Shown here: positions 21,742 through 61,979 of the stretch, one piece after another
Position numbering within the stretch: position 1 is the stretch's first letter
How the letters are laid out: each line of letters starts with the position of its first letter
Origin: Sipunculus nudus
Lineage: Eukaryota > Annelida > Sipuncula > Golfingiida > Sipunculidae
Length of the DNA stretch: 64,000 nt
Reading direction: 5' to 3'
NCBI GenBank assembly: GCA_026874595.1
Contig: CM049315.1
Coordinates: 15,876,164 to 15,940,163 of the forward strand
Translations under genes and position numbers: made by a program
The notes under the pieces: model-generated
What the model was told of the DNA's origin: nothing
The model's input: the letters and a program-made list of their open reading frames with translations, nothing else
The model's database searches: none

Positions 21742-21887
21742 ATGGCGTCAAAGATTGCAGCGGAATTGTCCGTCCTGACAGTTACGGACTCGGACGGACA
21801 CGAGCAGACAGCTACGTGTTTGCTGCCAAGTGATCCTGCACGGTTCACGCTTCTGGTGTTCCTCCGAAACTTCGCCTGAATAGCATG
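21742..21887 (+). CDS. PRXL2C: PRXL2C-like exon 1 with in-frame TGA (candidate Sec46)
   Basis: Starts MASKIAAELSVLTVTDSDG and runs to LLVFLRNFA, then TGA (21877-21879), ATA, GCA, TG and the donor GTTGGT at 21888. The donor is off consensus but gives exactly the phase that exon 2 needs. If TGA is a true stop, the protein ends after 45 residues. Confidence 0.75.
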
Positions 21888-24800
21888 GTTGGTAGATACA
21901 AGTCACGTGATCTTGCTACCTCTATAGCTCTACATTTTTAGCTCAGCTGACTATAAGTCATCTGAGCTATAGTTGTGGTCCATTGTCCGTCGTCTGTCCG
22001 TCCGTCCGTAGATGTGGCACGTTTTGAAACCGTAAGACCTAGGAATCCAAAATTCAGCATAATGTTAGATGTCCCCAAGATCTCCTACCAAGCCTAAAAC
22101 TGGGTCTTTGCGACTTCATTCCTTTGAGAAATTAAGGAAAAACCTCAATTTTTTATTAAAAACCTATATTCACACTTCAGGACTGCCTAATATCAAAACC
22201 ACTCATCTGTTTTTCCTCATATTTCCTATAAATAATCCTCTATATAATTCCTATGTACATGCCAGAAATTAGGTCTGTATTATATAATTTAAAAAAGTTA
22301 TGGGCCCAAACATAATGCATTTTGTAAATAATCAGGAAAGAAATTTTATCACTTAACACAAAACTTGTTAAAGCTAAGCACTTTTTTCCAGTAATATTAC
22401 TTTTATTAGTCAAAATTAAATTGTATACCCAAAATTAGATCAAAATCTTTTAAATTTTTTAAAATATTAGCAAAAATAAAAAATTGGTACCTTAAATTTT
22501 GCCCAACTTTGACCATGGCACGTTTTTTTGCTGAAACTGCTGTGGATTTAATTTTCACAGCATGTTTTTGTTAGCATTGTTAACACCAAAAATTTGAAAC
22601 CAGTTAATCAAAAACTGTAGATTTTATTCAAGTTTTCAAGCACCATGTCACATATTGCTAGTGTTATGCAGTTTGCTAGAGCTCAGCTCCCGAATTCAGC
22701 TCTAAATTCCTTAAATTTGGCATACAGTTAGATTTCTCCAAAATCCCCTACCATGCCAAGAATTTGGTCACTAGGACTTAATTCCTTCGAGATATCAATG
22801 AAAAACTTCATTTTTCCATTAAAAACCCATTGTTACACTTTAAGACTGCCTAATATCAAAACCACTGATCTGACTTTAATCATAAATAATATACATATTT
22901 TTCTATACATTCGCTATGCACATGCCAGAATGATATCAGTATTGCATAATTTGTTTTAAGTTATGGGCCCAAACATAATGCACTTTGTAAAAAAATCAAG
23001 AAATATATTTACTCCCTTAACTAGGGCATTGCTGAAGCTAGAGATTTTTTTGTCAGGGATGTAACCTTATTTAATCAAGATTTAATTGAATACCCAACAT
23101 TAGTTCTGAATTTTTCATAAATTTTCATGAATTTTTTTTATAAGTTATTAGTATAAATATAAAATTAGTACCTTAAATTTTGTCCAACTGTGACCATGGC
23201 ACGTTTGTTTCCCGTGAGCACTTTTGATATAATTTTCATATCATGCACACATAAGGATTTCAGCTTTTTAGTTTAGAAAGCTTAAAGAAATTGGCCAAAT
23301 ATTGAAGCTATTATTAATGTTTTTTATGAGACCCTGTCAGACTTTGGCTCTCTCCAGCCCCCCTTGAGTCACCTGTATGTTGACCTTGTTGACCTTTCAT
23401 CAAATTATGCACGCTTGAGGCGAGAATCCTGGCAGCTTATGGCCAGCCACAGTTGATCCAGGTGTCCAACCCAACTCATCTAGTAGTTTTAACCAACAAC
23501 ATAACAATAAACAATAAATTAATAAATTTTTATTGGTTTTTAATAACAAATTAAAGAAAAATAGAAAAGGAATTTGTTAGTTTATAATAACAGGAAATTA
23601 ACTTGCAGTTACTGATGATATAAGAATCTTGTATCGATGGGTAGAATGTCACATATTCCAAATAACACCATGCAGTCACCTATGGCATTTTTAGTTCAAT
23701 TTTAATGATAAAAAAGTAAATCATATTATTCATTACTAATCATTAGGGATTATATGAAGGAAATTAATGATAGACAAAGATGCAGTTGATAATATTAATC
23801 TAGATTTCTACTGTGTCTAGTGTGTACATTGATGTGAAATAAGTCCAGAATGAATTTTTTACAGTTATTTTTTAATATAAATAAAAGCCATAAAACCAGG
23901 TACTTATGATCATAAGTGTGATTTTTGTATATTCTGGATTCTCAACATCATTGTTTGGTGAAAACTGAATAAATACCAGACATGGTGCGAATACTTTGTA
24001 ATTGTATTTAAATACGAATATGATTATGTACTCCATTAAATTTCTTGCATAAAGAATGGGAATTCAGGTAAAAATGAAAGTATATGAATACTCGTGCAAA
24101 TACTTTCAAAATGTATTCATGAATGCATTCATGAATATATTCTTTAATATTATTATAATAATCATATCAGTTATATTTCATTTTAAAAAATCATACGATT
24201 CTCTTATTATTTTTAATAAAAATTATATTTGGGACAATATTTGTAATTTTTTTAATAAATAGTTAAACTCTTATATTATATGTTCTGCTTATAAGTTATA
24301 TGGCCAAGTCAAAATCTGTGTGACAGTAGTACTCCATTTGTTAATAAAATAAATGAAATCAATCCTCTTCCCTGTCTCCAAAGGTACTATCAAAATCATA
24401 CATAAGCTAAACAACAACAACTCATAATACAGCTTATATTTATTACCACACAAAACCAGCATGTGCCTCATTTCTAAATAATATTTTTTTATCATATATA
24501 ACAGCTGAGCGTCGTGACCCATAGGTCCCTTGTTTATTTTATATAACACGATACTTGTCGGAAACATCTTAGCCTGTATTACTATTAAAATATACTTTAG
24601 CTGACAACCCCTGTCATATATTTTCAAGGAAAAGTGAACGTGAATGACACTCCATAAATAAACAAATGTGTGTGTGAGGGTGTGTGCGTGTGCCTGAAAT
24701 TATGTTTCACTCGGTAAGCAGGTAAGGCCAACAAAAGAAAGGTATGGTTCTCAGGCACTTTTTTCAGGAACCATTGCAGGCGGGCAATATTTTATTTTTT

Positions 24801-27800
24801 TCAATTTTTGTATATTTTTAAAATGTCATATGATCAGGGAAACATAAAAATAACAGATTTTTTTTTTGCTAAACAGATAAAAACACTACATATCAAAGGA
24901 AAACTTATCAAAAATGTATCATTTTATCTTCTTGATTATGAAAATCAAAATAAGAATTTTTTATGTGGGGGTTTAATAAAAACGCGGGCGATGCCTGACA
25001 ACCATACCTAGCTTTTTATTTTTTTGGCCTAATGATAAATGTAAAAAAAATAAAATGTTTTTTGTTGCCTTAATGCCACTTAATATCACTTTTAATACCA
25101 ATTTTTCCAGGATATAACAATTGATTATTGATGTTAAAATGCCCTGGGTGACTATGATGTAGGCTCTCATCTGGGCTAGAACGGCCTGTAGACTGTTTCT
25201 CCCGCTAGCACTTTGCTGTGACTTGCATGTAATTTGTACCGTGTTGAGAGTTTTAATAGCTGCAGAGTCGTTTTAAATTAAAAACCATATTTGAAGGTCA
25301 CAATGTATTTTTAGTGCGTCTTTAAATTATTAATCCTCTTTCAGCTTTGAACTGATTACTAATGAATATTTATCTCTGCTCTGTGAAAAGAGTAGGTCAC
25401 AAGTTCATTCATATATATTATTGTTATTCAAAAATAAATATGGTCACATATTTTTAAATTTCAGTCATCTCCTGGTCCAAGCAATGCAGCCATTGTCCCC
25501 ACTCTTCATGAAGCATCATACTAGATTAATATTCATAAGCACATCAACCAATGAACAAACACAGGAGTTCTTAGCCAATCCAATTGTAGACATACCAGGT
25601 GACCTGTATGCTGATCCAAGTGTCAAGGTTCACCGTCTGTTCCAGCTGAAGAGAGGGGTTTTCCGCTCACTGGTGATGCCGCTGTGGTCTGGCATAAAAA
25701 AATATGGTTTCAAAGGCATTATTGAAGGTAACCATATCTTTCTGTTCTTTTGCAAGTCATAAAGTCGTTCTACATTTGTTTAAATAAACCATACTTTAAG
25801 GCACTACTTTCTATATAACTGTTTGCTGGGTATGGCCACTACAGAATTTAATAAAGAGCCAAGAATGTTTTCCCCAATTTATGCAAGCACAGTTTTGCTT
25901 GTTTCAAACTAGGTCAGACGTGATACCCATGCAGCTCTCATTGGTCAGAACACTCTTGGCCCAGTGCGAGCTTTTCTGATGGCAGTACTCAGCAAAGTGT
26001 TATAGAAAGCAATGGTTTTGTGAAAGGAATTATAAATTGAATCTCACCATGGCCTAATGAATGCACTTAAAAATTCACATGAACACAATCCATATCTCCA
26101 CTCATCTTATCGGGTTGCAGGTATTCTTGGAAATATATATCAGTTAAGTCATTAAAGATCAGGCTCGTCTTGAATAATACCAGCACTATCCCAAGTCAGT
26201 TTAACAACAAATGTACTACTAGATAGCTATTGTTAGAAATTTAACATTTAACTGTACATTAACAGGTGACAGGTAAGGGTACCTGCTTCAACCATGTCTG
26301 TACATTAACAACTGACAGGTAAGGGTACCTGACTCAACAATGTCTGTACATTAACAGGTGCTTATTAGGATACCTGACTCAACCATGTCTGTACATGAAC
26401 AGGTGCCTGGTTAGGATACCTGACTCAACCATGTCTATACATGAACAGGTGCCTGGTTAGGATTCCTGACTTAACCATGTCTGTACTTCAACAGGTTCCT
26501 GGTTATGATACCTGACTCAACCATGTCTGTACATTAACAGGTGCCTGGTTAGGATACCTGAATCAACCATGTCTATACATGAACAGGTTCCTGGTTAGGA
26601 TTCCTGACTTAACCATGTCTGTACATCAACAGGTTCCTGGTTAGGATACCTGACTCAACCATGTCTGTACATGAACAGGTGCCTGGTTAGGAAACCTGAC
26701 TCAACCATGTCTGTACATGAACAGGCGCCTGGTTAGGGTACCTGACTCAACCATGTCTGTACATTAACAGGTGCTTGGTTAGGAAACCTGACTTTGCCAT
26801 GTCTGTACATTAACACTTGCTCAGTAAGGATACCTGACTTTGCTATGTCTGTACATGATCAGGTGCTAAGTTAGGATACCTGACTCAACCATGTCTGTAC
26901 ATGAACAGGTGCCTGGTAAGGATACCTGACTCAACCATGTCTGTACATTAACAGGTGCCTGGTTAGGATACCTGACTTGACCATGTCTGTACATGAACAG
27001 GTGCCTTGTTAGGATACCTGACTTGGCCACGTCTGTACATGAACAGGTGCCTGGTAAGGATACCTGACTCAACCATGTCTGTACATGAACAGGTGCAAGT
27101 TGAGAATACCTGACTTGGCCATTTCTGTGTATAAACAGGTGACTGGTAAGGATACCTGACTCAACCATGTCTATACATTAACAGGTGCCTGGTTAGGATA
27201 CCTGACTTGGCCATGTCTGTACATAAACAGGTGCTCGGTGAGGATACCTGACTCAACCATGTCTGTACATTAACAGGTGCCTGGTTAGGATACCTGACTC
27301 AACCATGTCTGTACATTAACAGGTGCTCAGTAAGGATACCTGACTCAACCATGTCTGTACATGAACAGGTGCCTGGTTAGGATACCTGACTTGGTCATGT
27401 CTGTACATTAACAGGTTCCTGGTTAGGATACCTGACTCAACCATGTCTGTACATAAACAGGTGCCTGGTTAGGATCCCTGACTCAACCATGTCTTTTCAT
27501 TAACAGGTGCTAAGTTAGGATACCTGACTTTGCTATGTCTGTACATTAACAGGTGCTCAGTTAGGATACCTGACTCAGCCATGTCTGTACATTAACAGGT
27601 GCTCAGTAAGGATACCTGAGTTAGCCATGTCTGTACATTAACAGGTGCCTGGTTAGGATACCTGACTTGGCCATGTCTGTACATGAACAGGTGCCTGGTA
27701 AGTATACCTGACTCAACCATGTCTGTACATGAACAGGTGCCTGGTAAGGATACCTGACTTGGCCATGTCTGTACATTAACAGGTGCCTGGTTAGGATACC

Positions 27801-30800
27801 TGACTCAACCATGTCTGTACATTAACAGGTGCCTGGTAAGGATACCTGACTCAACCATGTCTGTACATAAACAGGTGCCAGGTTAGAATACCTGACTTGG
27901 CCATGTCTGTACATGAACAGGTGCCTGGTTAGGATACCTGACTCAACCATGTCTGTACTTTAACAGGTACCTGGTTAGGATACCTGACTTGGCCATGTCT
28001 GTACATAAACAGGTGCTCGGTAAGGATACCTGGCCCATCCATGTCTGTGCATTAACAGGTGCCTGGTTAGGATACCTGACTTTGCTGTGTCTGTACATAA
28101 ACAGGTGCTCGGTTAGGAGACCTGACTTAGCTATGTCTGTACATTAATAGGTGCTCAGTTAGGATACCTGACTCAACCATGTCTGTACATTAACAGGTGC
28201 TCAGTAAGGATACCTGACTTTGCTATGTCTGTACATGATCAGGTGCTAAGTTAGGATACCTGACTCAACCATGTCTGTACATGAACAGGTGCCTGGTTAG
28301 GATACCTGACTCAACCATGTCTGTACATTAAGAGGTGCCTGGTTAGGATACCTGACTTGGCCATGCCTGTACATGAACAGGTGCCTGGTAAGTATACCTG
28401 ACTCAACCATGTCTGTACATTAACAGGTACCTGGTTAGGATACCTGACTCAACCATGTCTGTACATGAACAGGTGCCTGGTTAGGATACCTGACTTGGCC
28501 ATGTCTGTACATTAACAGGTGCCTGGTTAGGATGCCTGACTCAACCATGTCTGTACATGAACAGGTGCCTGGTTAAAATACCTTACTTAGCCATGTCTGT
28601 ACGTGAACAGGTGCCTGGTAAGGATACCTGACTCAACCATGTCTGTACTTTAACAGGTATCTGGTTAGGATACCTGACTTGTCCATGTCTGTACATGAAC
28701 AGGTGCCTGGTAAGGATACCTGACTCAACCATGTCTGTACTTTAACAGGTACCTGGTTAGGATACCTGACTTAACCATGTCTGTACTTTAACAGGTACCT
28801 GGTTAGGATACCTGACTTGGCCATGTCTGTACATGAACAGGTGCCTGGTAAGGATACCTGACTCAACCATGTCTGTACTTTAACAGGTACCTGGTTAGGA
28901 TACCTGACTTGGCCATGTCTGTACATGAACAGGTGCCTGGTAAGGATACCTGACTCAACCATGTCTGTACTTTAACAGGTACCTGGTTAGGATACCTGAC
29001 TTGGCCATGTCTGTACATAAACAGGTGCTCGGTAAGGATACCTGGCCCATCCATTTCTGTGCATCAACAGGTGCCTGGTTAGGATACCTGACTTTGCTAT
29101 GTCTGTACATAAACAGGTGCTCGGTTAGGAGACCTGACTTTGCTATGTCTGTACATTAACAGGTGCTCAGTTAGGATACCTGACTCAACCATGTCTGTAC
29201 ATTAACAGGTGCTCAGTAAGGATATCTGACTTTGCTATGTCTGTACATGATCAGGTGCTAAGTTAGGATACCTGACTCAACCATGTCTGTACATGAACAG
29301 GTGCCTGGTTAGGATACCTGACTCAACCATGTCTGTACATTAATAGGTGCTCAGTAAGGATACCTGACTTTGCTATGTCTGTACATGATCAGGTGCTAAG
29401 TTAGGATACCTGACTCAACCAAGTCTGTACATGAACAGGTGCCTGGTTAGGATACCTGACTCAACCATGTCTGTACATTAACAGGTGCCTGGTTAGGATA
29501 CCTGACTAGGCCATGTCTGTACATGAACAGGTGCCTGGTAAGTATACATGACTCAACCATGTCTGTTCATTAACAGGTACCTGGTTAGGATACCTGACTC
29601 AACCATGGCTGTACATGAACAGGTGCCTGGTTAGGATACCTGACTTGGCCATGTCTGTACATTAACAGGTGCCTGGTTAGGATACCTGACTTGGCCATGT
29701 CTGTACATGAACAGGTGCCTGGTAAGTATACCTGAGTCAACCATGTCTGTACATGAACAGGTGCCTGGTTAGGATACCTGACTTGGCCATGTCTGTACAT
29801 TAACAGGTGCCTGGTTAGGATACCTGACTCAACCATGTCTGTACATTAACAGGTGCCTGGTAAGGATACCTGACTCAACCATGTCTGTACATAAACAGGT
29901 GCCAGGTTAGAATACCTAACTTGGCCATGTCTGTACATGAACAGGTGCCTGGTAAGGATACCTGACTCAACCATGTCTGTACTTTAACAGTTACCTGGTT
30001 GGGATACCTGACATGGCCATGTCTGTACATAAACAGGTGCTCGGTAAGGATACCAGGCCCATCCATGTCTGTGCATTAACAGGTGCCTGGTTAGGATACC
30101 TGACTTTGCTGTGTCTGTACATAAACAGGTGCTCGGTTAGGAGACCAGACTCTACCATGTCTGTACATAAACAGGTGCCTGGTTAGAATACCTTACTTGG
30201 CCATGTCTGTACATGAACAGGTGCCTGGTAAGTATACCTGACTCAACCATGTCTGTACATTAACAGGTACCTGGTTAGGATACCTGACTCAACCATGTCT
30301 GTACATGAACAGGTGCCTGGTTAGGATACCTGACTTGGCCATGTCTGTACATTAACAGGTGCCTGGTTAGGACGCCTGACTCAACCATGTCTGTACATAA
30401 AACAGGTGCCTGGTAAGGATACCTGACTCAACCATGTCTGTACATAAACAGGTGCCTGGTTAGAATACCTTACTTGGCCATGTCTGTACATGAACAGGTG
30501 CCTGGTAAGGATACCTGACTCAACCATGTCTGTACATTAACAGGTGCCTGGTAAGGATACCTGACTCAACCATGTCTGTACATAAACAGGTGCCAGGTTA
30601 GAATACCTGACTTGGCCATGTCTGTACATGAACAGGTGCCTGGTAAGGATACCTGACTTTGCTATGTCTGTACATAAACAGGTGCTCAGTTAGGAGACCT
30701 GACTTTGCTATGTCTATACATTAACAGGTGCTCAGTTAGGATACCTGAGTTAGCCATGTCTGTACATTAACAGGTGCTCAGTTAGGATACCTGGCTCAGC

Positions 30801-33259
30801 CATATCTGTACATTAACAGGTGCCCGTTAGGATACCTGACTTTGCTAAGTCTGTACATTAACAGGTGCCTGGTTAGGATACCTGACTTTGCTATGTCTGT
30901 ACATTAACAGGTGCTCAGTAAGGATACCTGACTCAGCCATGTCTGTACATTAACAGGTGCCCATTAGGATACCTGACTTTGTCATGTCTGTACATTAACA
31001 GGTGCTTGGTTAGGATACCTGACTTTGCTGTGTCTGTACATAAACAGGTGCCTGGTAAGGATACCTGACTCAACCATGTCTGTACTTTAACAGGTACCTG
31101 GTTAGGATACCTGACTTTGCTATGTCTGTACATGAACAGGTGCCTGGTTAGGATACCTGACTCAACCATGTCTGTACATTAAGAGGTGCCTGGTTAGGAT
31201 ACCTGACTTGGCCATGTCTGCACATGAACAGGTGCCTGTTAAGTATACCTGACTCAACCATGTCTGTACATTAACAGGTACCTGGTTAGGATACCTGACT
31301 CAGCCATGTCTGTACATTAACAGGTGCCTGGTTAGGATACCTGACTCAACCATGTCTGTACATTAACAGGTGCCCATTAGGATACCTAACTTTGTCATGT
31401 CTGTACATAAACAGGTGCCAGGTTAGAATACCTGACTTGGCCATGTCTGTACATGAACAGGTGCCTGGTAAGGATACCTGACATTGCTATGTCTGTACAT
31501 AAACAGGTGCTCGGTTAGGAGACCTGACTTTGCTATGTCTGTACATTAACAGGTGCTCAGTTAGGATACCTGAGTTAGCCATGTCTGTACATTAACAGGT
31601 GCTCAGTTAGGATACCTGGCTCAGCCATATCTGTACATTAACAGGTGCCCGTTTGGATACCTGACTTTGCTAAGTCTGTACATTAACAGGTGCTTGGTTA
31701 GGATACCTGACTTTGCTATGTCTGTACATTAACAGGTGCTCAGTAAGGATACCTGACTCAGCCATGTCTGTACATTAACAGGTGCCCATCAGGATACCTG
31801 ACTTTGTCATGTCTGTACATTAACAGGTGCTTGGTTAGGATACCTGACTTTGCCATGTCTGTACATTAACAGGTGCTCAGTAAGGATACCTGACTTTGTT
31901 ATGTCTGTACATTAACAGGTGCTCAGTAAGGATACCTGAGTTAGCCATGTCTGTACATTAACAGGTGCTCAGTAAGGATACCTGACTCAGCCATGTCTGT
32001 ACATTAACAGGTGCCCATTAGGATACCTGACTTTGTCATGTCTGTACATTAACAGGTGCTTGGTTAGGATACCTGCTTTGCCATGTCTGTACATTAACAG
32101 GTGCTCAGTAAGGATACCTGACTCAGCCATGTCTGTACATTAACAGGTGCCCATTAGGATACCTGACTTTGCCATGTCTGTACATTAACAGGTGCCCGTT
32201 AGGATACCTGACTTTGCCATGTCTGTACATTAACAGGTGCTTGGTTAGGATACCTGACTTTGCCATGTCTGTACATTAACAGGTGCTCAGTAAGGATACC
32301 TGACTCAGCCATGTCTGTACATTAACAGGTGCCCATTAGGATAACTGACTTTGCCATGTCTGTACATTAACAGGTGCCTGGTTAGGATACCTGACTTTGC
32401 CCATGTCTGTACATTAACAGGTGCTTGGTTAGGATACCTGACTTTGCCATGTCTGTACATTAACAGGTGCTCAGTAAGGATATCTAACTCAGCCATGTCT
32501 GTACATTAACAGGTGCCCATTAGGATAACTGACTTTGCCATGTCTGTACATTAACAGGTGCTTGGTTAGGATACCTGACTTTGCCATGACTGTACATTAA
32601 CAGGTGCTCGGTTAGGATACCAAACATCACACTTGGCTGGAGATTCCTGGCAGCAGGGTGGTCTGGTTCTGTTGGATCAGAAGGGAGATGTCTTGCATCA
32701 GGTGAGGCTATCAAAAGTGCATTTGTTTTTGTTAACATATTTCTTTAGAAATTTATCATTCTGTTTAAAACTATTTATAAGATATTAATCCTGGTTGTTT
32801 ATGTAGGCTGTGTTGTTTTCACAATGCTCTTTTGTATCAATTAAAACATGGTTTATACCTGGTAAATCAGATAATTAACCAGTAAAGAGGAGCATTATTA
32901 GGCTGAGTGCTCTGTGCACCATCACACTCACAGACATTGCACAATCAGTATGTATACAGACATTACACACATAATACACACACAAACTGAACAGAAAAAA
33001 TACATTACATTTGCAGAGGTTAAATCATGAAAGTATATGAATATGCATTCTAATCACCAGGACATCCCATATTATGTGTAAAATGTAAGATAAATTTCTG
33101 TATATATTCCTACAGCACACTGAGAACCATCCCGGTGACTGGAGTGATATGAAGGAGATATTTAACACAATAGGGGTCGATGATGCCAATGTGGATTACA
33201 AACAGGCTGTGGACCAGTGGCTTAAGGCACGGAAGGAGCACCAGCAAGATAAATCATAA
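21742..33259 (+). CDS. PRXL2C: PRXL2C/AAED1-like peroxiredoxin-like 2 protein, possible selenoprotein (gene span, 4 exons)
   Basis: Coding exons are 21742-21887, 25465-25727, 32616-32701 and 33116-33259, giving 212 residues (the human relative is of similar size). Splice phases agree at every junction. The family has a thioredoxin-like fold of the AhpC/TSA type. Here the strand LLVFLRNFA leads into the redox motif, followed by HLLVQAMQPL, the RLIFIST strand, DLYADPSVKVHRLFQLKRG and the conserved SWQQGG near residues 147-152. In relatives the motif is CxxC. Here codon 46 is TGA and codon 49, formed across the exon 1/2 junction (TG+T), is Cys, so the motif would be Sec-Ile-Ala-Cys. A selenocysteine reading explains exon phase and motif spacing. 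A SECIS element, required for it, was not found by eye in 33260-34330. No signal peptide or membrane segment is seen. The gene converges with ANKRD46. Confidence 0.88.
21940..24532 (+). mobile_element. AGCTCAGCTGAC repeat family, copy in PRXL2C-like intron 1
   Basis: Begins AGCTCAGCTGACTATAAGTC with a hairpin to CATCTGAGCTATAGT, then a GTCCGTCGTC stretch, then AT-rich modules with CAAAACCACT and GCCAGAA phrases, and ends CAGCTGAGC then GTGACCCATAGGTCCCTTG. GCTCAGCTGA at the start and TCAGCTGAGC at the end are exact inverted repeats. Two internal modules of about 660 bp resemble each other. No enzyme is encoded. It starts about 50 bases after exon 1. Confidence 0.65.
24741..25015. mobile_element. 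AT-rich MITE, copy 2
   Basis: Inverted ends GGTATGGTTCTCAGGCAC and GATGCCTGACAACCATACC enclose an AT-rich core related to 16912-17217. It lies in intron 1 of the PRXL2C-like gene and codes for nothing. Confidence 0.65.
25465..25727 (+). CDS. PRXL2C: PRXL2C-like exon 2
   Basis: Acceptor AAATTTCAG ends at 25464; donor GAAG|GTAACC. The first base completes a Cys codon with exon 1, and the last base starts a Gly codon finished in exon 3. Encodes the central thioredoxin-fold strands and helices, through IKKYGFKGIIE. Confidence 0.9.
26250..32615. repeat. 46-bp minisatellite, about 139 units, in intron 2 of the PRXL2C-like gene
   Basis: Consensus unit: AACCATGTCTGTACATTAAC, then AGGTGCCTGGTTAGGATACC, then TGACTC (46 bp); some units are 45 bp. 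The array runs for 6.4 kb and its last unit supplies the acceptor of exon 3. A marker variant (GGCCCATCC) recurs at 28031, 29043 and 30055, exactly 1012 bp (22 units) apart, showing higher-order repeats. Another variant (TGGCTCAGCC) recurs at 30792 and 31617. Minus-strand frames reading MYRHG- and VQTWLSQV-type sequence are just the repeat in three frames. Confidence 0.97.
32616..32701 (+). CDS. PRXL2C: PRXL2C-like exon 3 (acceptor inside the last minisatellite unit)
   Basis: Encodes YQTSHLAGDSWQQGGLVLLD and QKGDVLHQ, then donor CAG|GTGAGG. Two AG acceptors are in phase: CGGTTAG ending at 32615 and TTAACAG ending at 32603, which would add four residues (ARLG after the junction Gly). Both lie in the last 46-bp repeat unit, and the pyrimidine tract is weak. 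The coordinates use the inner one. Confidence 0.8.
33116..33259 (+). CDS. PRXL2C: PRXL2C-like exon 4 with stop codon
   Basis: Acceptor TATTCCTACAG ends at 33115. Reads HTEKHPGDWSDMKEIFNTIG-like sequence (as found: HTENHPGDW...) and ends QQDKS then TAA at 33257-33259. The C-terminal tail is charged. Confidence 0.9.
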   Translation, partial: HTENHPGDWSDMKEIFNTIGVDDANVDYKQAVDQWLKARKEHQQDKS

Positions 33260-33276
33260 ACACCATCCTGCACAAA

Positions 33277-33375
33277 CACACAGATCCTAGCATCACTCAG
33301 TAACTGAACAGATCCTAGTCTAAGTGTCTTACTCTGTAACTGAACAGACCCTAGTCTCACTCTGTAACTGAACCA
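33277..33375. repeat. Short tandem repeat in the PRXL2C-like 3' UTR (about 3 units)
   Basis: Three imperfect units of about 30-40 bp contain CAGATCCTAG, CACTCTGTAACTGAA or close variants. Confidence 0.7.
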
Positions 33376-33844
33376 TATACTGTGGTTGGCATTTTGGCGA
33401 GGGTTCAAAATTAGCACATGTCAGTAGTCATTTATGCCTTAGTCTCATTGGTATCTCTTGGTAGTAATGCTTGATGATAGTGACCAAAGTACCAGAGGGG
33501 CAAGAAATTGATATTACATGCCATCACAGATCTCATGTTACCTGTAAATTTAAGACGCATATAATAATTACTGTCAGATATTTAATTTATCTATCAAAAT
33601 TGAACAATTTCATTTAGTACAGTGCACGCTTTGGTCCTTTTTGAATGAGACATTTAAAGAGGTTTTGCTAATTTTCAACAGTTTATGACTTGATATCAAG
33701 TGTATATTGTGTTATGATGTTCAAGTCACTCTGTATAATCTCAGAATTCAACACCAGTAATATGAAGCCAATTACAGTATACTCATGAGTTACAGACATA
33801 AGCCAGTGTGCAAGAGGGTTGTTAATATATATTTATATATATAT

Positions 33845-34016
33845 AGTGGAACCTCCCCTTACAGGTAACTCTGTAATAAGGGCAATTTTTATGGCCACTT
33901 ACGGGCAGTCCCTCGAAAGAAGGTCCCAAAATCTATAAGCACTCTACTAAGGGCACCTCTATATTGCCAGCAAAATGTCTGGTCCCATCAGTGTCCATAA
34001 TTCATAGGTTCTACTG
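33845..34016. mobile_element. pogo-like MITE in the 3' region of the PRXL2C-like gene
   Basis: The ends AGTGGAACCTCCCCTTAC and, inverted, CAGTAGAACCTATGAA are related, with TA-rich flanks. 172 bp, no coding. Confidence 0.55.
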
Positions 34017-34186
34017 TTTGTGTGTATATATATGTATAATGACATATTTTATTATCATGATGTGTTCCATTGAGTCCTGCCACTTATGAGGGTCACTGCT
34101 GAAAGCTCAGTAAAGGGGTAGCATATGATCTGATCACTATGGTTACAGGCATCATTGGAACATATTGTGTATAAAGTTTTTTATTT

Positions 34187-34309
34187 ATTAAAGAACAAAC
34201 TATGCTTGTGTGTTGTCTTTATAATTCGTATATAAGAAAGTGAAAGTAGACTATGTTATATGGTTGTGTTTTATATAAAGATGCCATGCAGTTAGTCACT
34301 TGTAATAAA
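34187..34309 (+). terminator. Candidate polyadenylation signals of the PRXL2C-like gene
   Basis: ATTAAA at 34187-34192 and AATAAA at 34304-34309 lie about 930-1050 bases after the stop codon. No earlier AATAAA was noticed, so the 3' UTR is probably around 1 kb. Confidence 0.4.
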
Positions 34310-35653
34310 TGAAGGGTTTAGAACTAAGCTGAAACACATATAACATTTACTATTATTATTTATAATTAATGGTTGATTAATCATACACTGAAAAGGACAT
34401 AGTACGTTGGCCTATGCAGAATAATCCTACAGAATCTGCCCAGATACCCACCCAAAGTTTCATGGAAATTAGCCGTTTTTGCATAATTCTGCCAACAGAC
34501 CAACAAACCTACATGGGTGATAACACAATCTCCTTGGCAGTGGTAACAAAAAATTAAATACTAAAAATTACTTTCATGTGTTTTACGATCATGCAATTGC
34601 TACTTGTTACTTATGTCATGCCAACAGTAATAAAATATAGCTTCATTACATACTTTTTAAACCTTCAGTCTAACAAAATTTGTTGATGATATAACAATTC
34701 ACCATTAAGGAAAGCACACAGGATTGGCAAATTTTTGCGAAGGATGATAAAAACTATGGAAAAAATCTGAATTTTTTCAAGATAAAGAACTATGATATAT
34801 TTATTAATGATTTTCATGTGGCTACTGGTGTGTTATAGCATGTTGATTTGTCATCCATTAACCTTACCCTTGTGGTAATTCTGTCCGCCTAACCATGGAA
34901 GATGAGGGAATAACAGAACATCTGTGACACAGCAGGGCAGGGGTGCTGCCCAAGCCAGCCAGGCATGATTGATCTTTTACCAGGGAAGACGGTACTCCAT
35001 GCTTTGAAGTAACCAGAAGTGGGCTGGCTGCACTTGACAATGCAATATAACTGATATGGCCCCAAAGATACTTCAGTAAATGGCTCATTTTTTAAGCTTT
35101 TATTTCAAATTTCAAAATTTAATACCGGTAGTTTAAATTCATTTATGTGCATCATATGAAAATAAAATCAATGTTACTTACAGGGAATAAAATTCAACAC
35201 AGCAAAACAAATGTACTTTAAATTATAAGAGATCCCCTACAGTAAACATACTGTGGGGAAAAGCATAACTGTTAATGTTATATATTTTCAAATTACCTAA
35301 CTATACAAATTGAAAATATAATCATATTATGTTTAAAATCGTGAAACCAAGGGTCATGCATTTTTATGACATATTTCTATTCAAGAAATCTATAACTGTT
35401 TAGACAATTTTGGTACATATTTAACACAGGTCTATGTGATAGTAAATGGCATTTAAAACATGTTACATTGAAACAACATATATTTAGTCAACATTATTCC
35501 ATGTGATGCATTTCACTAGTGTCTGTCACACTGTGTGTCCATCCCACCAGCTGACTAATGCAATTACAAGTTGAAATAGGTCTCAACAGTCCCCATAAAA
35601 TGCATACTAAGTCATGTTAGCCATGAAGGCTAAGCTCTCTGAATGATTCACTG

Positions 35654-36002
35654 TCATAGTTCCACTCTGATTTCTCCACCATCAACTGGTATGCGACTGT
35701 CAACTTGCTTGGCTATGCTTGTGGCCATATAGGCCACATATACTGATATCACAAGTATCACTAAAATCAGACACACAAGTCTCTCAGCTCCCAGGTCCTT
35801 ACAGAACCTGTACCAGTCATCTTGTATACTTTTTAAGAGTGAAGTTCTGCTCCCTTGTACAGGTGGCTGTGGATCAAGTAATGGATCTGTCTCTTGTTGC
35901 TGTCCTGCTGTTCCAGGTTCAAGCCTCTCCAGTAATTCTATTGCTCTTGGTTCAACTCCCCTCCTCCTCATCAGCAGGTCAGGCGTGTCACCGTTATGGT
36001 TC
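35654..36002 (-). CDS. ANKRD46: ANKRD46 coding exon 2 with stop codon
   Basis: Acceptor TTTTTGTTGTCAG precedes 36002. The first base completes an Arg codon, then NHNGDTPDLLMRRRGVEP continues the last ankyrin repeat. Ends GGEIRVEL then TGA at 35656-35654. Confidence 0.92.
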
Positions 36003-36850
36003 CTGACAACAAAAAGAATATTTCACCCTTGAAGAGTACAGCTATCAGATCAAGACCAGTATAAGACCCTTGTTTTATATATTGAAGAGAATAATAAAAG
36101 AAATACGGCATAAATTGCAATATTTATATCCTGACATCAGCAACATACAGAATAATGTTATCACTTATGGCGGACGAACAGAAAAAACGTCAATATTTCC
36201 GATTTTCAACACATTGTTATTCCAAAACAATCAGTCAATTCATTAAATATCCCTTTTTTTTATACAAATTAATGTCTCTGTTACATATATACAATAATCT
36301 ACAGCATAATACCTATATATAAACTGTCTTATATACCTTTACAAAAAAAACCCTAAACTACACCTTTACTGATATATATGTATATTATTATTTACATAAC
36401 TGTAATTAAGGGTGATAATATTTTATGTAGTCCATTAAGTGATCAGTGAATTACCATCAAACATCACCAGTGAGGACACTGGTAATTCTGATCACGCTTC
36501 TCCACAAAGTTTTATTTTAAATGATTTTTAAATAACTATAAATTAATTTATCCCTAAGATAAATGAACCCACCTGCTAATCTGAGCACCATGTTCTAGTA
36601 GGCAGCTAATTGTTTCTACGTGGCCAGCATAATGTAGAGGGGTGTTGCCATGACAGTCCACGCAGTTAACCTCTGCCCCATGGTCCAGCAGTAGTCTCAG
36701 CACTGACGCCCTGCCCCGGGAACACGCCCAATGAACGCCCCTTCTCCCTCTCTCGTCCGGGGCGTTTGGGTCCCATCCTTCGTCTAGCAGAGATTTTAAT
36801 TCATTAATATTACCAGCAGCAGATACATTTGGGATAGTGAATTCTCCCAT
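35654..36850 (-). CDS. ANKRD46: Ankyrin repeat domain protein 46 homologue (gene span, 2 exons)
   Basis: Coding exons on the minus strand are 36850-36573 and 36002-35654, giving 208 residues (the vertebrate protein is about 230). The first ATG in frame is at 36850; the frame is open slightly further upstream but only through a TTG. Four ankyrin repeats occupy about residues 6-120, with clear GVHWACSRG and GNTPLHYAGH cores. An acidic, proline- and glutamine-rich linker follows. Then comes QDDWYRFCKDLG, which parallels the vertebrate WQEFVEDLG segment, and one membrane segment at about 168-186 (LVCLILVILVISVYVAYMA) with a short tail. This order of repeats plus C-terminal anchor identifies ANKRD46, predicted to face the cytosol from an internal membrane. 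It converges with the PRXL2C-like gene. Confidence 0.9.
36573..36850 (-). CDS. ANKRD46: ANKRD46 coding exon 1
   Basis: Starts MGEFTIPNVSAAGNINELKS and ends QIS plus two bases; donor AGCAG|GTGGGT. Encodes ankyrin repeats 1-3. Confidence 0.9.
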
Positions 36851-37023
36851 CCTTGATCTATTTTTTTTTCTACTCAAGTGTTGGCACTGTCGACCTTCAC
36901 CTTGCAGAATGTTGTTTACGTGCTCATTGACTGATACCTGCGTTATTACCGTTGACAGGGAGCAGTAGATTTCACGGCTGGGTACCAGGCTAAATCTTTA
37001 AGAGTAAGGTGCACTCTCTACAG

Positions 37024-43170: not shown

Positions 43171-61979
<18,809 letters not shown>

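Follow-up and report, generated by a model that had tools for sequence, protein, structure and literature searches.

We analysed a 64,000-nt stretch of the Sipunculus nudus genome (contig CM049315.1 of GCA_026874595.1, positions 15,876,164 to 15,940,163 of the forward strand; hereafter the window), in which a gene for a thioredoxin-fold protein carries an in-frame TGA at its redox motif. All positions are those of the whole window, and exon borders were predicted from sequence. Four coding exons on the plus strand (21742–21887, 25465–25727, 32604–32701 and 33116–33259) were joined into 651 nt, i.e. 217 codons including the terminal TAA, which ends at 33259. The resulting frame of 216 residues contained exactly one internal stop, the TGA at 21877–21879 (codon 46). 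The 170 sense codons after it, running from exon 1 into exons 2–4, were intact and held the conserved residues of the family.

Exon 1 begins with the ATG at 21742 and encodes MASKIAAELS...LLVFLRNFA-U-I-A-C, where U is the proposed selenocysteine (Sec) and the first two bases of the C codon precede the donor TG|GTTGGT at 21887/21888. Intron 1 (21888–25464) ends with TTTCAG|T CAT CTC at 25465, giving the split codon TG|T (Cys). Exon 2 therefore completes the second Cys of a UxxC motif, which reads U-I-A-C in the window protein, and it also encodes most of the thioredoxin-fold core. The remaining borders were 25727/25728 (GAAG|GTAACC) and 32603/32604 (AACAG|GTGCTC) on either side of intron 2 (25728–32603), and 32701/32702 (TCAG|GTGAGG) and 33115/33116 (TACAG|CACACT) between exons 3 and 4. 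The start of exon 3 (ARLGYQTSHLAGDSWQQGG...) was refined to 32604 (AACAG|GTGCTCGG), which placed its first bases within the final repeat of a tandem array with a 46-bp unit and added A-R-L-G ahead of YQTSHLAG; a similar (F/I/A/V)(R/K)L(G/A) was found in most relatives. An earlier note on this DNA had proposed the junction of exons 1 and 2 and three intact conserved exons after the TGA: its letters, coordinates and phase at the junction were present in the window, and the four-exon join gave one frame with that single TGA.

A normal CxxC could in principle come from an alternative exon or donor that skips the TGA, and the donor TG|GTTGGT is weak against the consensus. However, a three-frame scan of intron 1 gave eight CxxC strings, none of them exon-like as judged by eye, and the bacterial relatives described below carry the TGA in the same continuous frame, making such skipping highly improbable.

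The window protein scored 51 bits with the Pfam family AhpC-TSA_2 (PF13911, peroxiredoxin-like 2; cut-off 27), over residues 59–169 of a 212-residue draft. A sequence search of the PDB, with Cys substituted for the TGA, found the prostamide/prostaglandin F synthase 9us9 (E 4.7e-11), whose “FGCVVC” was aligned to “FACIAC” of the query; a second entry, 9usa, had “FGSVVS” at the motif site. The TGA is thus aligned with the first Cys of the 9us9 CxxC, indicating that the redox motif starts with it, as the earlier note had claimed. The synthase, which we take to be PRXL2B, belongs to the same fold family. Unlike the window protein it is a Cys form; its human sequence, in a provisional version not drawn from a database, was 24% identical to the window protein in the broader alignment (A2) used below, and it fell outside the eukaryotic clade of the window gene.

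One scan of a bacterial and archaeal genome collection with alignment A2 returned 186 stretches containing a short motif, and 36 of these (L001–L036), all in bacterial records, encoded relatives; earlier scans of bacterial genomes and viral contigs with a narrower alignment (A1) had found no relative. The scan query had Cys at the position of codon 46, so that the search was without bias toward TGA. Codon 46 was spanned by 35 of the 36 alignments (L031 being a C-terminal piece only), and the codon there was TGA in 33 and a Cys codon (TGT or TGC) in two. These UxxC or UxxA proteins (AhpC-TSA_2 or “SelL-related redox” proteins) were 20–33% identical to the window protein. In 33 of the 35 the TGA sits at exactly the same site, behind a strand of the V/LxFxRHxG type, and the proteins share with the window protein a second Cys three residues on (30/35) and a GD-x-x-QQGG motif. 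Among the 33 TGA genes, the third residue past the TGA was Cys in 28 and Ala in five, the latter differing from the window protein in this respect. The five, L003, L004, L006, L011 and L018 (Desulfobacterales), have kept the TGA while Ala stands in for the resolving Cys; among the bacteria, they lie closest to the eukaryotic clade.

The RNA just 3′ of the UGA was folded for the 33 bacterial TGA genes. Its mean z was −0.97, compared with −0.05 in 105 control windows of 35 loci (Mann-Whitney p 9e-7, uncorrected for relatedness), and z was below −1 in 16 of 33 genes against 14 of 105 controls. This tighter fold is as expected of bacterial selenocysteine insertion sequence (SECIS) elements. Selenocysteine in the bacterial proteins would be directed by a structure just past the UGA, whereas in the window gene it would depend on an element in the 3′ untranslated region (3′ UTR). 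The sharing of this UGA makes the age and the direction of selenocysteine use (shared ancestor or transfer) directly testable.

Eukaryotic relatives were sought among 5.8 billion predicted proteins. The single sequence as query gave 11 relatives, and a search with their alignment raised the total to 72. BLASTP aligned none of the 72 at or upstream of codon 46. In three of them, P0002 (MACLL..), P0012 (MACLL..) and P0006 (VACQL..), the first residue corresponds exactly to codon 47, with x-A-C straight after the proposed selenocysteine, and the projected start was at codons 47–59 in 42 of the 72. In five others (P0017, P0022, P0045, P0047 and P0048) the start was projected to codon 46 or further upstream, with N-termini unaligned there. 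Starts just past codon 46 are as expected of gene finders that stop at a TGA, and a selenocysteine at an internal stop would explain these database versions of the relatives. Eleven relatives bear mollusc names (Haliotis asinina, Tegillarca granosa, Mytilus trossulus, M. galloprovincialis, Crassostrea virginica, Saccostrea cucullata, Nucella lapillus, Littorina saxatilis, Pomacea canaliculata, Babylonia areolata and Batillaria attramentaria). None of these eleven aligned to the N-terminal fifth, the region of the Sec codon. Their database names are uncharacterized, hypothetical, AAED1, PRXL2C or prostamide synthase-like, and the Pomacea canaliculata protein is labelled “LOW QUALITY PROTEIN”.

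An assembly or sequencing error, with TGT or TGC as the true codon, would agree with the Cys codons of two bacterial relatives, which indicate that a Cys form is viable. The TGA in the other 33 of 35, together with the three eukaryote-like proteins that start exactly one codon past it, leaves very little room for such an error.

Two further features were seen among the protein relatives. Seven non-mollusc proteins (P0006, P0018, P0020, P0026, P0028, P0029 and P0050) have a hydrophobic C-terminal tail, probably membrane-anchoring, which is missing from the mollusc proteins; P0043 and P0048, from Triparma, have a glutaredoxin domain behind the peroxiredoxin-like domain.

The Sipunculus nudus genome itself (1.43 Gb, 153 contigs) was searched for the tRNA of selenocysteine (tRNA-Sec). 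The two top matches to the tRNA-Sec family, of 52, scored 80.6 and 79.2 bits, and both loci were identified by ARAGORN as tRNA-SeC with anticodon tca; the third match, at 47.6 bits, falls on a serine tRNA. The same family search also gave matches in 14 of 14 control genomes, above cut-off in five, so it is the gap between 79.2 and 47.6 bits that counts. When the window protein was searched against the genome, only its own four exons were matched (4 of 8 candidates), with “1 TGA” flagged in exon 1, and the Pfam family found exon 2 only (1 match of 12 candidates). No Cys paralogue was seen in these searches, which divergent, intron-split paralogues could escape.

The probable 3′ UTR extends from 33260 to 34210, its end being placed by the poly(A) signal ATTAAA at 34187–34192; a second signal, AATAAA, lies at 34304–34309. 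The region 33260–36500 was scanned for a TGA followed by a hairpin in which at least 6 pairs precede an unpaired AA or CC 8–15 nt after the TGA, with a 3′ GA and an added basal duplex. One site was found, on the plus strand at 34061–34164, upstream of the ATTAAA signal. It comprises ATGA (34086–34089), a helix II of ~11 bp, AAA (34102–34104), GA (34132–34133) and a long basal stem, the core reading ATGA, GGGTCA-C-TGCTG, AAA, loop, TAGCA-TA-TGATCT, GA, with 12 nt from ATGA to AAA. The earlier note had seen no convincing SECIS element with an RTGA core in 33260–34330, a statement that this site does not uphold. The site scored −16.7 kcal/mol in total, a value attained by 3 of 1000 shuffled versions of 33260–34210, and by none of 1000 when an R before the TGA and an AA at 10–13 nt were also demanded, a filter set after the site was seen. 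Three sites in total, the best at −10.4, came from eight further stretches of the same length. The fold of 34061–34166 had −34.4 kcal/mol (z −2.42), and 4 of 200 shuffles were equally stable. The site is a good candidate for the SECIS element, not proof of one, and the case for selenocysteine is independent of it. An ankyrin gene, presumably ANKRD46-like, lies on the minus strand at 35654–36997, convergent with the selenoprotein gene, and limits the likely reach of the 3′ UTR.

Several observations, with the weak exon 1 donor among them, weigh against reading the TGA as selenocysteine. The hairpin core alone (34083–34137) was no stabler than shuffles (z −0.28) and 34067–34155 had z 0.45; as the full stretch is stable, it is the basal stem that carries the stability. 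Helix II has a 1×2 internal loop. The Rfam SECIS models gave no match at E up to 10, either on 33200–36500 or on 171 bases around the hairpin, nor did Rfam find a SECIS element in the whole window at gathering score. The scan scores are without a positive control from the same genome, and on both strands of the window two sites outscored the candidate, at 44263 (TTGA, −29.2) and at 25916 on the minus strand (CTGA, −17.2); neither has an RTGA core, and both were set aside as SECIS candidates. In the bacteria, the Rfam SECIS families had no match in the 20 of 36 loci scanned, and one of the two Cys genes also has a tight fold past the codon (z −1.75; the other 0.4). As to the eukaryotic proteins, 25 of the 72 start further downstream, many as short exon pieces, and are uninformative on codon 46. 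A query with the N-terminal 45-residue peptide, for fragments of the relatives ending at the TGA, gave no candidate, and a TGA in the mollusc orthologues is suggested by predicted protein starts, not by eukaryotic DNA.

Were the TGA a true stop, the locus would be a pseudogene or would encode a 45-residue peptide only. The standard reading does end at residue 45, and the sole SECIS candidate in the 3′ UTR is unconfirmed by Rfam. Against this stand the intact 170 codons with their conserved residues, the same TGA in nearly all bacterial relatives and the lack of any other matched copy in the genome, and we consider a true stop very unlikely.

Features by which a eukaryotic selenoprotein is recognised were found in this gene: a single TGA in an intact conserved frame, a site that holds Sec or Cys in homologues (33 TGA and two Cys codons of 35; Cys in 9us9), and tRNA-Sec in the genome. 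The candidate selenoprotein of the earlier note is thereby supported, on the strength of the TGA in bacterial relatives, the 72 proteins without alignment at or before codon 46, tRNA-Sec and the SECIS-like element. We conclude with high confidence that the gene encodes an AhpC-TSA_2 oxidoreductase of the thioredoxin fold, 216 residues long, with the redox motif U-I-A-C and Sec46 at the UGA of 21877–21879. In thioredoxin-fold peroxidases and reductases, the first residue of such a motif serves as nucleophile and the second Cys as resolving residue. In the window protein, the Sec machinery would be recruited by a SECIS element of the 3′ UTR, for which 34061–34164 is the best candidate. By analogy, the selenol of Sec46 would attack the substrate, a peroxide or a disulfide, and Cys49 would resolve the intermediate into a selenenylsulfide, which may then be reduced by a system of the thioredoxin/thioredoxin reductase type. 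Peroxides, endoperoxides or disulfides are the likely substrate range. Selenocysteine would thus occupy the catalytic position of a peroxiredoxin-like redox enzyme, and correct annotation would enlarge the mollusc selenoproteome.

To place the protein within its family, a tree of 57 rows was built. It held the window protein, 18 relatives from the set of 72 proteins, 35 from bacteria, and provisional sequences, not drawn from a database, of three human PRXL2 proteins. The window protein, five named molluscs, P0001 and P0002 formed a clade of 8 rows (100/98), which was joined by 11 eukaryote-like rows (100/100) that include Triparma (P0043 and P0048) and P0055 from EukProt. The nearest bacteria (98/96) were five Desulfobacterales-type proteins, those with UxxA. 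PRXL2A–C, all in provisional form, fell among other bacteria on long branches, with PRXL2A (SelU1) placed apart from the window protein. Omission of PRXL2A and PRXL2B gave the same outcome, and a forced union with the provisional human PRXL2C sequence was not rejected (approximately unbiased test, p 0.076). The earlier note had called the gene PRXL2C-like; it is PRXL2-like by its match to Pfam AhpC-TSA_2, while orthology to PRXL2C was neither recovered nor rejected in the trees. The earlier note's reference to related bivalves is likewise weaker, as the relatives point to molluscs without singling out a class.

We give slightly less than an even chance that the protein is orthologous to a selenoprotein that already has a name, be it SelL, SelU2/PRXL2C or a different SelU; such orthology is compatible with the selenocysteine reading. 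The sole NCBIfam match of the window protein was SelL_rel_redox (NF040769), at 86.7 bits and under the cut-off of 120, and this model matched 12 of 12 rows of alignment A1. However, it scored the provisional human sequences at 82.3 (PRXL2C), 53.9 (PRXL2B) and 45.6 bits (PRXL2A), and four bacterial relatives at 106.6–125 bits, one of them above the cut-off. The model was dropped as a means of telling SelL from PRXL2C, since the provisional PRXL2C sequence scored nearly the same as the window protein. PRXL2C/AAED1/SelU2 has its Pfam family in common with the window protein, and databases list two of the mollusc relatives under the names AAED1 or peroxiredoxin-like 2C; yet human PRXL2C, in its provisional sequence, has CxxC and 24% identity to the window protein, and the trees did not join the two. 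The SelL motif is UxxU, in contrast to the UxxC found here.

Published surveys bear on the same question. SelL is described as a peroxiredoxin-like selenoprotein of aquatic organisms in PMC2398784, and as having two Sec two residues apart in PMC3316567; the second position is Cys in the window protein. According to the part of PMC3473315 consulted, SelL is present in five of six invertebrates, none being given there for the mollusc Lottia, and SelU selenoproteins are present in all six. The single Sec-form SelU of Lottia, whose subfamily does not appear in that part, could be the orthologue. The same part gives Sec-type SelU2 among invertebrates in Trichoplax only, a Sec form like that of the window protein, and AhpC-like selenoproteins in sponges.

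A bolder and tentative proposal, which we hold possible though on balance doubtful, is a eukaryotic selenoprotein family of its own, apart from SelU1–3 and SelL. Molluscs at large and several other eukaryotes would have retained its Sec form, and the family would derive from, or share a Sec-type ancestor with, Desulfobacterales-like bacterial proteins. Such a family could go unnoticed because annotation pipelines start the protein past the Sec codon. No report of this gene was found, by title and start of abstract, among the papers listed on PRXL2C/AAED1/SelU2 selenoproteins and on bivalve or oyster selenoproteomes, a search with most subscription journals outside its scope and so no proof of novelty.

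Apart from the selenoprotein, two genes within the 64 kb contain tandem arrays seeded on a 3′ splice site, a striking arrangement for which no evident report was found in a limited literature search. Most of intron 2 of the selenoprotein gene is a minisatellite (26252–32621, 46 bp × ~139), whose unit, in diverged copies, resembles the intron end, acceptor (AACAG) included, joined to the initial 18 nt of exon 3. Of 136 scored copies, 134 keep the AG, and the gene model splices at the last copy, at 32604. The second array (48425–50898, 59 bp × 42) has the same build, TTTATTTATTTTTCAG plus an exon start, and lies in what we take to be a TMEM185-like gene; here AG is present in 42 of 42 scored copies, and the last copy runs into the exon.

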